64,000 nucleotides of DNA, taken from assembly GCA_030418545.1 (NCBI GenBank), contig QAIB01000007.1:62001-126000 (forward strand), given 5' to 3'. Made by a program: the position numbers and the translations under genes. The notes under the pieces are model-generated. The model was not told the origin of the DNA, made no database searches, and saw only the letters and a program-made list of their open reading frames with translations. The DNA is from Xenophilus aerolatus. GTDB taxonomy: Bacteria; Pseudomonadota; Gammaproteobacteria; Burkholderiales; Burkholderiaceae_C. Position 1 is the first letter of the stretch; each line of letters begins with the position of its first letter. Below, piece after piece: positions 53,376-61,189 of the stretch.

Positions 53376-53497
53376 AGACGGATGCAGAACGCGAAAGACG
53401 CGAAGGTTTCGCGAAGGCCGCGAAAAAGACAAACAAAAAGTTTTTCTTCTTTTGCGTCTTTCGCGAAGCCTTCGCGTCCTTCGCGTACGGGTGTCCG
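53376..53497. repeat. 122-124 bp palindromic repeat, copy 3
   Basis: The left end is degenerate (ACGGATGCAGAACGCGAAAG); the right end CTTCGCGTACGGGTGTCCG is intact. It fills the gap between the ligase and liuA. Confidence 0.8.
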
Positions 53498-53500
53498 ATT

Positions 53501-54673
53501 TCAGGACGTCTCCGCAAACAACTCGCGGCCGATCAGCATGCGCCGGATCTCCGAGGTGCCCGCACCGATCTCGTACAGCTTGGCATCGCGCCACAACCGC
53601 TCCACGGGGAACTCCTTGGTGTAGCCCACGCCGCCCAGCGCCTGGATCGCCTCACCGGCCATCCAGGTCGCCTTTTCGGCCGAGTAGAGGATGGCGCCGG
53701 CGGCGTCCTTGCGGAAGGTGCGCGCATGGTCGTTGCGGTCGCAGGCCTTGCCCACGGCGTACACGTAGGCGCGCGTGGCCTGCCAGGTGGAGTACATGTC
53801 GGCGATCTTGCCCTGCATCAGCTGGAACTCGCCGATGCTCTGGCCGAACTGCTTGCGGTCGTGGATGAAGGGGATCACCGCATCCATGCAGGCCGCCATG
53901 ATGCCCAGCGGCCCGCCCGAAAGCACGGCACGCTCGTAGTCCAGCCCGCTCATCAGCACCTTGGCACCGTTGCCCTCGCCGCCCAGGATGTTCTCTTCGG
54001 GCACTTCGCAGTTGTCGAGGAAGAGCGGGTACGTGTTGCTGCCGCGCATGCCCAGCTTGTCGAGCTTGGTGCCGGCCGAGAAGCCCTTGAAGCCCTTCTC
54101 GACGATGAAGGCCGTCATGCCGCGCGCGCCCATTTCGGGCTCGGTCTTGGCGTAGATGACCAGGGTGTCGGCGTCGCCGCCGTTGGTGATCCACATCTTG
54201 CCGCCGTTGAGGACGTAGTAACCGTCCTTCTTTTCGGCCCGCAGCTTCATGCTCACCACGTCGGAGCCGGCGTTGGGCTCGCTCATGGCCAGCGCGCCGA
54301 CGTGCTCGCCGCTCACCAGCTTGGGCAGGTACTTCTTCTTCTGCGCCTCGCTGCCGTTGCGGTGGATCTGGTTCACGCACAGGTTGGAGTGCGCGCCATA
54401 CGACAGGCCGACGGAGGCCGACGCACGCGACACCTCCTCCATGGCCACGATGTGCGCGAGGTAGCCCAGTTCGGTACCGCCGTATTCCTCCTTCACCGTC
54501 ATGCCGTGCAGGCCCAGCGATCCGAGCTTGGCCCAGAGGTCGTGGGGGAACAGGTTGTCGCGGTCGATCTCGGCGGCGCGCGGCGCGATCTCGTGGGCAC
54601 AGAAGTCGGCCACCGCGTCGCGCAGCGAATCGATGGTCTCGCCCAGGTCGAAATTCAGGCCGATCTGGCTCAT
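53501..54673 (-). CDS. liuA: Isovaleryl-CoA dehydrogenase
   Basis: FAD enzyme oxidising isovaleryl-CoA to 3-methylcrotonyl-CoA, the first committed step of this route. It has 390 residues. [32 protein letters not shown] and [19 protein letters not shown] match IVD. The catalytic Glu is expected in [15 protein letters not shown], the IVD-specific position. It is the first gene of the liu run. Electrons go to ETF. Its upstream region to the AraC gene contains repeat copy 4. Confidence 0.94.
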
Positions 54674-54705: not shown

Positions 54706-54827
54706 CGGACATCCGTACGCGAAGGGCGCAAAGGTTGCGCGAAGGACGCGAAAGAACTTCAGAGGAGAAAAGGCTGTTCTTTTGCGTCCTTCGCGAAGTT
54801 TTCGCGTCCTTCGCGTGCGGATGTCCG
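54706..54827. repeat. 122-124 bp palindromic repeat, copy 4
   Basis: Starts CGGACATCCGTACGCGAAGG and ends CCTTCGCGTGCGGATGTCCG. It lies in the divergent region between liuA and the AraC regulator, so it occupies most of the liuA promoter space. Confidence 0.85.
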
Positions 54828-54907
54828 ATTGCATGCAGCTTACGCCGCCCCTGCCCGCATTTGGCGCCACAATGGTTGCAAATCCCGCCACATCCAGCTG
54901 CCTAGGA

Positions 54908-57117: not shown

Positions 57118-57678
57118 TCAGCCCTGCGCATCGGTCTCGTCGACGATCTTCAGTGGCGAACTGGGACGCAGCTGGAAGCGCAGCACGCTGACGCTGTGCT
57201 CCGCCAGCGCCGAGGCGGGCAGCTGGGTGATCTGCAGGCCGTCCTTGACGTCGATGCCGCCGCGCACCTCGACCTCCACGCCGTCCACCAGCATGCCCGG
57301 CACCTTCTTCGCGATCACCTCGGTGTTGACGCGATCGATGCCCGACTTGACCTGCGTCACGAGGTCCTGGATGCCGATCTTCGCGGTCTGGTTCTTCAAC
57401 TGGTCCAGCTCGGCCGCCAGACGCACGTTCCGCTCGGACTGCGCCGCCAGCTCCTTGCGCAGGCCGCCGAGCTCGGCGTCGCGGCTCACCACCGTCTGGG
57501 TCGCCGTGGCGAGCTGCTTCTGCAGCTCGGTGTTGGTGTCGCCCAGTCGCTGGATCTCGGCGTCGCGCACCGCCACCGCCTGCACGGCCTCGTTGAACTT
57601 GCCGCGCACGAAGTCGACGTTGCGGATGCTGGTGTCGTTGATGGTGCCGGGGTCGAAGGGCACGAAACGGGTGGCCAT
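57118..57678 (-). CDS. Coiled-coil member of the paralogue operon, unknown
   Basis: 186 residues. The N-terminus MATRFVPFDPGTINDTSIRN is followed by a heptad-rich coiled coil at residues about 25-95 and then a beta-rich C-terminal domain with VEVEVRGGIDV and SVSVLRFQLRP. The last part resembles the SLLRVTxKPVP segment of the two genes upstream. AAGGAG precedes the ATG. It is the last gene of the six-gene operon, 17 bp after the previous one. No known family; acidic, no signal peptide. Confidence 0.7.
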   Translation of the reverse strand: MATRFVPFDPGTINDTSIRNVDFVRGKFNEAVQAVAVRDAEIQRLGDTNTELQKQLATATQTVVSRDAELGGLRKELAAQSERNVRLAAELDQLKNQTAKIGIQDLVTQVKSGIDRVNTEVIAKKVPGMLVDGVEVEVRGGIDVKDGLQITQLPASALAEHSVSVLRFQLRPSSPLKIVDETDAQG

Positions 57679-57695
57679 GGCGGTGTCTCCTTCGC

Positions 57696-58070
57696 TCAGG
57701 CGGTGGTGCCCGGCGGCGGCACCGGCACGATGCGCAGCTTCAGCGAGCTGGTGCCTTCGGCATTGAACGCGAAGGTGCTGCGGTACTTGGTATTGAAGGG
57801 CGCCACGTACATGCGCGGCGCGGCCTGCGGTGCCTTCTTCTCGAAATGCAGCGCCATGCGCATCTCGACCGTGGCCTCGGGGATCTGGTACCAGGTCACC
57901 TGGTAGCCCAGGGCCTGCAACTCGGGGTGCTCGGCCGCGAGCTGCGTCTGCGATGCCAGCGCCGCGGCATCCAGCTCGCGCTGCGCGGCTGCCACGCCGG
58001 CACTGATCTCGCGCACCATGCTCGACAGCGGCGAGATCAGCACTTCGTCCATGTTCACGTCGGTGGCCAT
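57696..58070 (-). CDS. Paralogue-operon protein, short form (124 residues), unknown
   Basis: The N-terminal half is an amphipathic helical region (ISPLSSMVREISAGVAAAQREL). The C-terminal half has the shared beta core: VEMRMALHFE, then KYRSTFAFNAEGTSSLKLRIVPVPPPG. Compared with its longer paralogues it lacks the middle linker. AGGAG lies before the ATG; it is 9 bp after the previous gene. No signal peptide or membrane segment. Function unknown. Confidence 0.75.
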   Translation of the reverse strand: MATDVNMDEVLISPLSSMVREISAGVAAAQRELDAAALASQTQLAAEHPELQALGYQVTWYQIPEATVEMRMALHFEKKAPQAAPRMYVAPFNTKYRSTFAFNAEGTSSLKLRIVPVPPPGTTA

Positions 58071-58079
58071 GGCATCTCC

Positions 58080-58664
58080 TCAGCGTTCCGTGCGCGTGAC
58101 GACGGGCGGCGTCACGGTCGCGTTGATGGTGACCACGTCCGGCGCGAGGCGGATCGGCGGCGGCACCGGCTTCATCGTCACCCGCAGCAGGCTCGAACCT
58201 TCCGCGGTGTGCGTGTAGGTGCTCTGGTTGCGGAAGTTGACCGGCGCGGCAAAGGCGATGACGCCGCGCTTGCCGAAGCCCGGTCGGCCCTCGGTCTGCG
58301 TGGCGCTGGCCTGCTTGAGGCTCACCGACATCTTCACCTCGATCAGGGCCTCGGTGAACTGGTAGAAGGTCGGCAGCAGTCCGGCCTGCAGCAGCGTGGT
58401 CTTGACCGGCGCCACGGGCTGCTGCGTCACGCTCACGCCGGGCACCGTGACATTGCTGCCGGCCACGGCGAGCGTGGTCGGTGCGGGCGAGATGACCTCC
58501 GTCACCTGCGGAATGAGGTCGATGGCGTTGGCCTCGCTGGCGAGGAATTTGAGCGTGTCGATCGACGCGCGGTCCAGCGCGAGCTGTCCCTCGGCAACGG
58601 CGGCGGCGAGGTCGCGCACCATGTCGGCGATGGGGACGTCCAGAAGTTCCTGTCCTACGGCCAT
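58080..58664 (-). CDS. Paralogue-operon protein, long form B (194 residues), unknown
   Basis: MAVGQELLDVPIADMVRDLA begins an N-terminal helical domain (residues 1-45), followed by a Thr/Val-rich linker, then LLQAGLLPTFYQFTEALIEVKMS and the beta core ending YTHTAEGSSLLRVTMKPVPPP. Closely related to 60127-60771. AAGGAGAA precedes the ATG. The family is shared with other bacteria by memory, but I know of no assigned role. Cytosolic by sequence. Confidence 0.78.
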   Translation of the reverse strand: MAVGQELLDVPIADMVRDLAAAVAEGQLALDRASIDTLKFLASEANAIDLIPQVTEVISPAPTTLAVAGSNVTVPGVSVTQQPVAPVKTTLLQAGLLPTFYQFTEALIEVKMSVSLKQASATQTEGRPGFGKRGVIAFAAPVNFRNQSTYTHTAEGSSLLRVTMKPVPPPIRLAPDVVTINATVTPPVVTRTER

Positions 58665-58695
58665 GGGGTTCTCCTTCGGGTTCGGGGGCAATCGG

Positions 58696-60102
58696 TCAGT
58701 CGAACACGGCGGCTGGCGTGCTGGCATGGACGGCGCGCCGCAGCGCATGCAGCGCACGCGTCGGCGCCGGGGTGCCGCGCGAACGGTCGAACCAGCCGGT
58801 CGCGCTGTGCGCGAGCCAGCCGACGCCGCCCTGCAGGCACAGCGCCATGAGCCGGTCATGCGCCAGCGGCGCCTGCGCCAGGGGTTCCCAGCCATCGAGC
58901 AGCAGGGGCTGCCGCAGGGTGCCGGCGAGTGCTGCGGCCGGGGGCGCCTGCGGCCGCGTGGCGTCCCACAGCAGGCCCAGGCCCGGCTGCATCGGCGACC
59001 GCGGCAGGTCGGCCACGGACTCGAGGGGCAGCCACACCAGCGCGCGTGGGTGCAGGGACTGCAGCGCCAGCGCGGCCGCGCGGAGTCGGGCCGCCAGCGG
59101 GGGCCGGCCCAACAGGCCGAACAGCACCGCGGGCCGCTGTGCATGGCGCTGTGCCAGGCGCAGGTGATGGCCATGCAGCCACAGCCGGGCGTCGAAGCGC
59201 AGCAGTGTGTAGATGCCCTGGGCGGCCCAGGCATCGATGCGCGCATCGAGCCGCGCCAGCGCTGGCGGGGTCAGCTGGGACGCCAGCGACAGGCACAGCG
59301 CCACGCAGCGCCGGCCAGGCGGAACGCCCGCGAGCGCCTGGTCGGCGAGTGCGAGTTCGGGCCCGTCGGCGTCCCGCGGTAGCCGCAGCCCCAGCAGCCG
59401 CAGCGCCGAGCCGTCGGCTGCCAGCAGATGGCCGCCTTCGCTGCGCAGCCAGTCCAGCGTCGATGCGGCCGCCGGGGCCCTTGCGGAGGGCACGACCGCC
59501 GATCGCGGTGCCGGGCGCAGCGGGCGCGTCGGTGTGGCGGCGGCGGCGCGTGGTGGCCGGGCCTCGCCGCGTGGCCGCGCGGCACGCGCCGCCGGCGGCG
59601 CGGCGTCGCGCGCCGCGCGGCCAGCCCGCGCATCCGCCGCGGTGCGCGCGGCGGGTGGGGGACGACGCGCGTCGCCGGACGACGGCGGGCGCGGCCTCGG
59701 CGGCCGAACCGGCCGCGATGCCACGACACGCACGCCTGCGCGGCGCCCCGGCTCAGGCCGCGCCGCGCCGGAGGCGACGGCGCGCTCGCGCGATGGCAAC
59801 GCGACCGACCGCATGCGCACCGGCGGCGACGTGGGCGCGCGTGCAGGCCCGCCGGCGGTCGGCCGTTCCCGCGCGGGGCGCGCAGGCATGGGCCGCTCCC
59901 GCGCAGGCCGCGCAGGCACCGGCCGCTGCAGCGTCGGCCGGGGCGGCGGCGTGGTCGGTGCGCCGGGTCGGGCGGCATCCGCTGCATGACGGGGTGGCAG
60001 GGGCGGCCGGGCCGCGACATCCACACGCGCCGCCGAACGGGCAGGACGGCCCCGCTCCTGGCGGCGCGCCTCGACCAGCGCCGGAAACCGTGGCCGCGAC
60101 AT
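58696..60102 (-). CDS. Disordered N-terminus plus degenerate glycosidase-like barrel, unknown
   Basis: 468 residues. Residues 1 to about 215 are Arg/Pro/Ala-rich and disordered, with RPMPARPARERP-like repeats. The rest looks like a cellulase-type (GH5) barrel: LLAADGSALRLLGLRLP, then LDARIDAWAAQGIYTLLRFDARLWL and later VLFGLLGRPP. The NEP acid-base motif is not there, so hydrolysis is doubtful; it may only bind. It lies mid-operon, 24 bp after and 31 bp before the paralogue genes. No signal peptide. Confidence 0.65.
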   Translation of the reverse strand: MSRPRFPALVEARRQERGRPARSAARVDVAARPPLPPRHAADAARPGAPTTPPPRPTLQRPVPARPARERPMPARPARERPTAGGPARAPTSPPVRMRSVALPSRERAVASGAARPEPGRRAGVRVVASRPVRPPRPRPPSSGDARRPPPAARTAADARAGRAARDAAPPAARAARPRGEARPPRAAAATPTRPLRPAPRSAVVPSARAPAAASTLDWLRSEGGHLLAADGSALRLLGLRLPRDADGPELALADQALAGVPPGRRCVALCLSLASQLTPPALARLDARIDAWAAQGIYTLLRFDARLWLHGHHLRLAQRHAQRPAVLFGLLGRPPLAARLRAAALALQSLHPRALVWLPLESVADLPRSPMQPGLGLLWDATRPQAPPAAALAGTLRQPLLLDGWEPLAQAPLAHDRLMALCLQGGVGWLAHSATGWFDRSRGTPAPTRALHALRRAVHASTPAAVFD

Positions 60103-60126
60103 GGGAGGTCCTGGGCGATGCAGCGC

Positions 60127-60771
60127 TCAGGCGCCGAAGGTCACCTTGGGCGGCGTGACGGTCGCGTCGACGGTGACGATGCGCGGAATGATGCGCGGCG
60201 GCGCGGGCACCGGCTTGAGCGTGGTGCGCAGCAGGCTCGAGCCCTCGGCCGAGTAGTCGTAGGTGGACGAGCTCTTGTAGTTGACGTGCGACGCGAAGGT
60301 GGTCGACACCGAGGCCGAGCCGCCGAATCCGAACAGCGAACCGTGGGCCTCGGCCTCGGTGCTGATCTCGAACTCGGCCCCGGCTTCGAATTCGCGCGAA
60401 CTGGAGCTGCGGTGGCTGATCGACACCTTCACCTCGATCAGCGATTCGGTGAACTGGTAGAAGGTCGGCAGCAGCCCAGCCTGCATCAGCGTCATGTCGA
60501 CGGCCTTGGCCGCCTCGGTGCGCACGGCGATCGTGTCGGTGTCGCCGGCATCGCCCGGCAGGGTGGTGCCGGGCTCGAGGGCGTCCGAGAGCTTCTTCTT
60601 CTCGACGATCTCGTAGATGTCGGGGATGACCTTGACCTTGGCCTTGGCCAGCGCGCGCGCCGTGTCCAGCGACGCCTTGTCCAGCTTGCGCTGGCCCTGG
60701 GCGATGGCGTTGGCCATCTTGTAGATCATGTCCGGGAAGGGGACGTCCAGAAGCTCCTGACCGATGCTCAT
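60127..60771 (-). CDS. Paralogue-operon protein, long form A (214 residues), unknown
   Basis: MSIGQELLDVPFPDMIYKMA starts an N-terminal helical domain with many Lys (residues 1-50), then a linker, LMQAGLLPTFYQFTESLIEVKVS, a Ser/Glu-rich beta stretch and the common core STYDYSAEGSSLLRTTLKPVP. About twice as many beta residues in the middle as its paralogue 58080-58664. GAGGTG precedes the ATG at 60771; the previous gene ends 4 bp upstream. Confidence 0.78.
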   Translation of the reverse strand: MSIGQELLDVPFPDMIYKMANAIAQGQRKLDKASLDTARALAKAKVKVIPDIYEIVEKKKLSDALEPGTTLPGDAGDTDTIAVRTEAAKAVDMTLMQAGLLPTFYQFTESLIEVKVSISHRSSSSREFEAGAEFEISTEAEAHGSLFGFGGSASVSTTFASHVNYKSSSTYDYSAEGSSLLRTTLKPVPAPPRIIPRIVTVDATVTPPKVTFGA

Positions 60772-60775
60772 GATT

Positions 60776-61189
60776 TCACCTCGCGACGGGTTGGGTGGAA
60801 ATGCGGATGCCGGTGGCGCCGTCCGGCCGATGCTGCGCGGGCCGGTGCCAGACCAGCGGGCGGTGCGCGGGGCCCGGCGCCGGGGCGCCCGCTTCAAGGC
60901 CACCGCGTGCGGCCAGCTGGGCCGCCACGTTGGCCGCGAACAGGTGGCGCAGCTTGGTGGCGGCTGCGCCCTGGGGATCGAGGCTGAGCGCCCCACAGGA
61001 CTCGACGGCCTCGTGGCGCAGGAAGAGCGGCTGCCACTGGTCGTCGAAGGCGGCGATGAGCGCGCCCGAGCCGGTCGCCATCAGCACGAAGCCGCCCAGC
61101 CTGTGCAGCAGGCCTGCGAGTTCGTCGCGCACGGCGTCGTCGTCCTGCGCGCCGGCCTTGAGTGCGATGAGGAAGATCTGGTGCGACAT
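60776..61189 (-). CDS. First gene of the paralogue operon, unknown (137 residues)
   Basis: SHQIFLIALKAGAQDDDAVRDELAGLL then GGFVLMATGSGALIAAFDD suggest a ferredoxin-like alpha/beta domain in residues 1-60, and a helical LSLDPQGAAATKLRHLFA region, with a disordered tail. Not related to the other members. No strong ribosome site is seen. The gap to the next gene is 4 bp. No family is recognised. Confidence 0.68.
   Translation of the reverse strand: MSHQIFLIALKAGAQDDDAVRDELAGLLHRLGGFVLMATGSGALIAAFDDQWQPLFLRHEAVESCGALSLDPQGAAATKLRHLFAANVAAQLAARGGLEAGAPAPGPAHRPLVWHRPAQHRPDGATGIRISTQPVAR

Follow-up and report, generated by a model that had tools for sequence, protein, structure and literature searches.

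What does an operon make whose six products match no family of known function, and does it exist as a unit outside its host? The question is raised by the minus-strand genes at positions 57118..61189 of a 64,000-nucleotide stretch of Xenophilus aerolatus DNA (contig QAIB01000007.1, positions 62,001 to 126,000; hereafter the window). In order of transcription they encode S (P0006), A (P0005), a barrel protein (P0004), B (P0003), C (P0002), and D (P0001). An earlier note, made from the letters of this DNA, had described four of these products as paralogues that may form a hetero-oligomer. The finding reported here is larger than that note: as judged by sequence profiles, the genes belong to a patchily distributed cassette of bacteria and archaea, whose core domain belongs to a superfamily that also takes in DUF2589 and Trypco2.

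The six tightly spaced genes that the note had seen, with gaps of 4 to 31 bp, are all present as coding sequences (gaps of 17, 9, 31, 24, and 4 bp, counted from D towards S), and the reading frames are supported by homologues of A–D and of the barrel gene elsewhere. The homologues in genome G126 are 86 (A), 88 (B), 86 (C), and 60% (D) identical to the window proteins; D also has homologues in Polaromonas L119 and Xenophilus L122. P0002–P0006 gave no match in Pfam, NCBIfam, or PHROGs at E 1, and P0001 gave only weak matches of coiled-coil type. With PADLOC, P0002–P0006 had no match at E 0.01, and the only match of P0001 (E 0.0095) fell within its coiled coil. The note had known of no named system of this kind, and none of the window proteins matched a family of known function. 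Within the source genome, matches of the A profile were confined to the operon locus.

Four products of the operon carry copies of one domain

The two long paralogues, A (60127..60771, minus strand, 214 residues) and B (58080..58664, minus strand, 194 residues), are 43% identical (BLASTP E 3e-53), and the common segments GQELLDVP, LLPTFYQFTExLIEVK, and AEGSSLLR reported earlier are all found in both. C (57696..58070, minus strand, 124 residues) is a minimal copy of the shared domain, and D (57118..57678, minus strand, 186 residues) joins a coiled coil to a copy at residues 99–186 (57121..57384, minus strand). Profiles were compared with hhalign. A aligned with B at E 8e-48 and with C(w), the C-type proteins resembling P0002, at E 1.6e-24; C(w) aligned with type-I C at E 4.5e-10, and type-I C with the D domain, that of P0001 included, at E 6.2e-11 (recut profile, 21 sequences). 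The third paralogue, called related in the note, aligned with the second at E 7e-12, and the match of the fourth to type-I C agrees with its description as a weak match, in the last 60 residues, attached to a coiled coil. Profile comparison thus shows that one domain is present in A, B, and C and in the C-terminal portion of D.

The same comparisons reached families outside the cassette: A aligned with DUF2589 (PF11655) at E 6.4e-8, D with Trypco2 (PF19631, trypsin-co-occurring domain 2) at E 3.7e-6, and C(w) with Trypco2 at E 4e-5. Eight profile comparisons were each set against 40 column-permuted controls, none of which scored as high as the real pair; among reversed alignments, E 0.028 was the best value. 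The result with the permuted controls holds for each tested link of the chain by which the four paralogues, whose mutual comparison the note had proposed, are connected. A hidden Markov model built from six DUF2589 sequences found six A-type open reading frames (ORFs) (E 4e-8 to 5e-4), an independent route to the same link. Some direct comparisons were not significant, namely P0001 with A (E 0.24 and 0.069), A with Trypco2, and DUF2589 with Trypco2, with C(w), and with D. Since these fail, the superfamily rests on a chain of comparisons, through which D, too, is reached as a remote copy. When the D alignments were cut by position, links were weak or absent (best, C against window-type D, E 4e-4); the clear link arose after the domain had been recut by eye in 21 sequences of the analyst's choosing. 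Read in this way, one predicted domain superfamily joins the cassette proteins, DUF2589, and Trypco2.

DUF2589 resembles A in more than its profile, as two copies lie close together in four of the five genomes with a match. It differs from the cassette in that the window proteins do not match the Pfam model even at E 1 (cut-off 23 bits), 2 of 89 A-type proteins match it (best E 0.0056), and a search of five DUF2589 loci with the A, B, C, D, and S profiles found nothing at E 0.01. At three of five DUF2589 loci inspected a wall hydrolase of GH19 or amidase type, as judged by eye, adjoins (L037 9138-12123, L126 8842-11240, and L128 6254-8474). A fecal record titled 'Bacteriophage sp.' holds a DUF2589-like match (E 2e-11, 30.5%).

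Trypco2 takes its name, according to PMC7159879, from the trypsin-like peptidases with which it co-occurs in VMAP ternary systems, and Trypco1/2 are there and in PMC10907252 placed in conflict systems and termed adapter domains. By eye it shares with the cassette domain the pattern of a helix and strands. The window proteins do not match its Pfam model (cut-off 24.2 bits); the best member score among those listed was 16.4 bits (C of L046), and matches came from 3 of 89 A-type proteins, at best with E 0.0036. Trypco2 is a short domain, whereas the cassette has four diverged copies together with S, and the clusters of cassette neighbours present in at least 3 of 60 loci (clusters, not single neighbours) hold no peptidase. 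As DUF2589, of unknown function, and Trypco2, a conflict-system adapter, fall into one superfamily, work on any of these proteins informs the others.

The domain and S recur as a gene cassette in bacteria and archaea

When the contigs of GTDB genomes were scanned, 262 relatives of A/B type were obtained, and the counts given here are for the best 80 of them; these loci are not independent (seven of the records, for instance, come from Halorubrum and four from Nitrospira). All 80 have A by construction, 70 have C, and 61 have D, always with C; the gene set, whose persistence the note had left to be checked, does stay together in other genomes. S (60776..61189, minus strand, 137 residues, conserved over about residues 1–95), the first gene of the operon, has counterparts in 49 loci, and the small genes of seven further loci of archaeal/Aquificota type are also S by profile, which brings the total to 56 of 80. 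The added S profiles aligned with type-I S at E 4.7e-7 and 7.4e-6 and with window-type S at E 6.2e-9 and 3.8e-5; the links between S types ranged overall from E 2e-9 to 4e-5, and for each of them none of 30 permuted controls was as good. The results show that, as identified by profile, the shared domain and S recur as a gene cassette in both domains of life.

The commonest gene order is S-A-B-C-D (25 of 80 loci), while haloarchaea mostly have A-B-C-D-S. The window type, S-A-barrel-B-C-D, is found in Xenophilus L122, Polaromonas L119, and G126. A larger cluster, which includes a TPR protein and an A copy of 537–596 residues, is found at ten loci, among them those of Marinobacterium, Saccharophagus, and Caulobacter. 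In one relative, from G185, the A core is split, its halves sitting at opposite ends of the protein. Near the head of the larger clusters a protein of about 330–370 residues occurs in nine loci (L116 5518-6519 and relatives); the L116 protein has no convincing Pfam match, the weak one being to MarR_2 (E 0.0012). On a Sphaerotilus plasmid all five cassette genes are annotated 'hypothetical protein'. When the neighbours in 60 of the 80 loci were clustered after removal of near-duplicates, the recurrent ones besides parts of the cassette and the larger cluster were one ABC-ATPase cluster (9 of 60 loci) and a few families at three loci each.

Within the family of the source genome, 9 of 399 genomes, the source included, carry a relative of A; phylum-wide the count was 1 of 200, which was the source genome. 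By the labels of the records, many of which are metagenome-assembled genomes (MAGs) and some possibly misassigned, the carriers of A belong to 15 named bacterial phyla and to the archaea, and C and D both occur in 14 of the 15, the exception being a short Campylobacterota contig. The archaeal carriers of A are haloarchaea, methanogens, and further lineages, which we take to be alkane or methane oxidisers. Isolates with A relatives include the bacteria Sphaerotilus, Pelovirga, Parerythrobacter, and Saccharophagus, and the archaea Halorubrum, Natronomonas, Methanocalculus, and Methanimicrococcus. The A proteins of Sphaerotilus and one Halorubrum are 62–63% identical. In a tree of A/B-type proteins the archaea are scattered, and the starred branches alone force at least five changes of archaeal label; the tree (81 rows) was a quick one with SH-aLRT support only, duplicates and six of the nine large clusters were left out, and its details are unsure, as a program warning pointed to long branches meeting in places. 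The mixing of bacteria and archaea in this tree suggests that the cassette spread by horizontal transfer. A phage origin was rejected, as neither P0005 nor the A protein of L046 had a match in 50,697 phage records; the A2 scan of viral contigs gave 142 pattern matches, none of which was a relative by tblastn.

As a system the cassette is apparently undescribed, even though its domain has known relatives. No paper naming both DUF2589 and Trypco was found in the literature searched, which comprised neither subscription papers nor preprints. A conserved multi-gene set with no family model for its core, present in 14 phyla and in archaea, is likely to be a defined machine overlooked by annotation. 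It is small and present in culturable hosts, and is thus directly testable.

Structure models and export signals

AlphaFold2 modelled C from 38 sequences with a mean predicted local distance difference test score (pLDDT) of 78.8, as one long helix (residues 15–47) followed by three strands (66–77, 86–91, and 108–114), in keeping with the helix and beta core that the note had assigned to the third paralogue. The alignment for A held the two window sequences and 87 of 118 A-type ORFs (89 in all), fused copies longer than 280 residues and near-duplicates being left out. The resulting model has a helix and a long beta-hairpin (residues 105–187; 60211..60459, minus strand) with strands at 105–124 and 169–187 and a low-confidence tip at about 126–169. 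When viral models were searched with it, one match was obtained: A0A516MP19 in BFVD, a viral protein of 178 residues that may be DUF2589-like (E 6.8e-3, probability 1.00, TM-scores 0.42/0.50). The A profile found no PDB sequence at E 1; the C profile gave seven rows, the best at E 0.12, mostly on the helix.

Within the hairpin, apolar and polar residues alternate more than in shuffled sequences (mean z 3.5; 70 of 83 proteins above 2), with z 4.7 for P0005, 1.2 for P0003, and −0.1 for an N-terminal control segment. The 83 are those of 109 proteins in which a region of sufficient length was defined by the regular expression (26 had none or too short a one). Because tryptophan and tyrosine were counted as apolar and the reference was shuffles and not soluble beta-proteins, we read the hairpin as amphipathic and not as a membrane element: the result shows an amphipathic hairpin in the A family, and alternation alone does not mark a membrane hairpin.

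The note had found no signal peptides, and in a simple hydropathy scan this holds in the family. A stretch of 19 residues with a mean hydropathy of at least 1.8 within the first 35 residues was found in none of 118 A, 42 B, 71 C/C(w), and 31 D/D(w) proteins (archaeal-type D proteins lay outside the scan), and in 1 of 42 S proteins. From the lack of such stretches the products probably start in the cytoplasm.

Judged by eye, the S pattern resembles a ferredoxin-like fold. Seven of the nine weak PDB matches of the S profile are to Tk-subtilisin propeptides, a likeness to subtilisin propeptides and I9 inhibitors; S differs from these in that the matches are not significant (E 0.66–0.79), no protease is attached, and no I9 family is among the Pfam matches of 30 S proteins (E 0.1).

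The barrel protein of the Xenophilus lineage

P0004 (58696..60102, minus strand, 468 residues) consists of an N-terminal region of 205 residues, 67% of which are Arg, Pro, or Ala, and a barrel at residues 206–468 (58699..59487, minus strand). Genes of this type have homologues in Xenophilus, Polaromonas, Giesbergeria, and G126. The barrel, which the note had called degenerate, is related to GH5: by hhalign it aligned with the GH5 proteins of L090 and L096 at E 1.6e-11 over 147 columns, a remote homology seen only in this way, as P0004 has no Pfam match at E 1. L090 is a Syntrophobacterales MAG, and L096 a near-identical one, in which genes of A, B, C, and D type are followed by a GH5 gene (L090 against PF00150, E 1.8e-19) and a second barrel gene, whose product has a basic N-terminal region and a degenerate barrel. 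The P0004 barrel could be aligned over almost its entire length with this second one (E 3.1e-10, against E 0.029 for the best of 30 permuted controls). As a degenerate protein the barrel is thus found both in Comamonadaceae and in MAGs of Syntrophobacterales type, in the latter beside a GH5 that matches Pfam. Since L090 and L096 show the same features, the possibility that the barrel gene is an unrelated insert was dropped. In the tree the window A and B fall into one group with those of L090 (support 93), B pairing with the second long copy of L090/L096 at an SH-aLRT value of 80; with this moderate support, the association of barrel and cassette may be old.

The glutamate of the Asn-Glu-Pro motif of GH5 enzymes is catalytic. 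In P0004, GRP stands opposite the NEP of the L090 enzyme, so that activity is unlikely; we read the barrel as degenerate and probably a binding module. The gene directly before A in L090 (6711-8894) encodes a GT4-type glycosyltransferase fused to an S-type domain, with a weak match, under the cut-off, to the Pfam GT4-conflict family (E 0.0029).

What the cassette may do

Relatives of the window proteins carry attached modules. An OmpA domain lies inside the hairpin of the one large A copy of the larger clusters that was scanned, L116 has PASTA domains at the C-terminal ends of its C- and D-type proteins, as does L113 in its archaeal D, and PASTA and helix-hairpin-helix (HHH) were found in both haloarchaeal D proteins scanned. 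PADLOC matched the L113 D to PD-T4-6 (E 2.7e-22) and, at E 8.5e-5, the large A copy of L116 to ZorB; the two matches were set aside because Pfam places PASTA and OmpA there: the first was taken as the shared PASTA region and the second as the OmpA/MotB-type region. Modules attached inside the hairpin and at C-terminal ends suggest a scaffold that presents ligand-binding parts, and four diverged domain copies that bacteria and archaea alike keep beside a small partner are best read as subunits of one assembly. We therefore favour, at somewhat under an even chance, a reading in which the operon would encode a leaderless multi-protein scaffold or adaptor assembly displaying binding modules (PASTA, OmpA, or a sugar-type barrel). 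The hetero-oligomer proposed in the earlier note is retained here as a prediction, with paralogy, co-conservation, and the lack of leaders as its grounds; the archaeal carriers, the kinship with DUF2589 and Trypco2, and the Syntrophobacterales counterpart of the barrel go beyond it.

In such an assembly the long helices would bundle and the sheets would pair edge to edge, different domain copies filling different positions of one hetero-oligomer. With its coiled coil D would contribute a stalk or a tether, and S would be a small subunit that caps the structure or helps it to assemble. The whole would act as a scaffold or adaptor for ligand-binding modules, with the degenerate sugar-hydrolase barrel as the co-encoded module of the Xenophilus lineage.

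Several observations weigh against this reading. The assembly is deduced from co-conservation, and the single-chain models do not show it. The A model is only fair (mean pLDDT 65.0, predicted template modelling score 0.43), and Foldseek searches of the PDB gave nothing significant for A (best E 3.0) or C (best E 0.18). The window-type D domain aligned weakly with type-I D (E 1.7e-4, probability 49%); with this weak link, 27 of the 61 D calls rest on the coiled-coil profile and gene position. Some loci have no C or D, and several of these are contig ends, although L085 and L087 seem to have no C where the contig continues; nine large clusters have no D by the profiles used. PASTA and OmpA are usually extracytoplasmic, yet no export signal was seen. 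Finally, no nuclease, peptidase, or NTPase-effector enzyme recurs in at least 3 of the 60 loci.

Because Trypco2, a near named domain, is described as a conflict-system adapter, the most likely job of the assembly would be to bind cell-envelope or foreign glycans, or other polymers, in a stress or conflict response; by this analogy the proposal is tentative, and we consider it doubtful and the least certain step of the reading.

It is unlikely, in our judgement, that the cassette is a strict defence or conflict system, sensing phage or competitors and triggering an effector as is proposed for the ternary systems that contain Trypco2. The Trypco2 profile link, the patchy spread among genomes of the family and phylum, and the mixture of bacteria and archaea in the tree would all suit such a role. 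So would the modules of its relatives: PMC7159879 describes Trypco-type adapter domains in VMAP systems and lists OmpA and PASTA in iSTAND systems, there usually after a transmembrane segment. The cassette proteins have no transmembrane segments, the window proteins gave no informative PADLOC match, and no cluster of an effector enzyme, STAND, MoxR, or vWA family is found among the neighbours in at least 3 of the 60 loci, which also separates the cassette from the iSTAND/VMAP ternary systems.

A membrane-inserting assembly, in which the A and B hairpins would join into a beta-barrel pore or tip and the co-encoded hydrolase or barrel would act on envelope polymers, appears improbable. The hairpin alternation and its absence from the control segment, the A model, in which two strands some 20 residues long lead to an unresolved tip, and the wall hydrolases, named by eye, beside three of five DUF2589 loci point towards it. 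A soluble amphipathic sheet is also expected to alternate, however, and P0003 does so only weakly. PDB matches to protective antigen and aerolysin were not significant (E 5.4 or more), a whole OmpA domain inside the hairpin of large A copies suits insertion badly, and no hydrolase recurs in the cassettes.

Equally improbable is a complex that assists energy or carbohydrate metabolism and has no part in conflict: it would fit the lactate up-regulation of the short DUF2589-related genes AF0414–AF0417 of Archaeoglobus fulgidus, a possible counterpart of the cassette, as given in PMC3949148, the Syntrophobacterales cluster with its S-fused glycosyltransferase and GH5, and our impression from record titles that many hosts are anaerobes or sediment organisms, but the hosts are very diverse, and the neighbours of the cassette include no recurrent metabolic pathway.

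The scaffold reading can be carried further, to a new kind of nanostructure shared by bacteria and archaea: a leaderless hetero-oligomeric ring or spike of repeated helix-hairpin subunits, whose long amphipathic hairpins would engage the membrane or envelope and whose tips would carry exchangeable modules. We regard this as a long shot. DUF2589 and Trypco2 would in that case represent simpler forms within one superfamily.

Expression signals and a neighbouring repeat

A purine-rich stretch lies upstream of five of the six starts in the operon, the exception being 60776..61189, and a scan of the operon for promoters and terminators gave nothing above chance. A palindromic repeat of about 110 bases lies between genes elsewhere in the window (53447-53503 and 54706-54833). 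A 141-base query containing it had 71 matches in the genome at 69–100% identity, many of them being both strands of one site, and the element looks like a dispersed intergenic repeat family.

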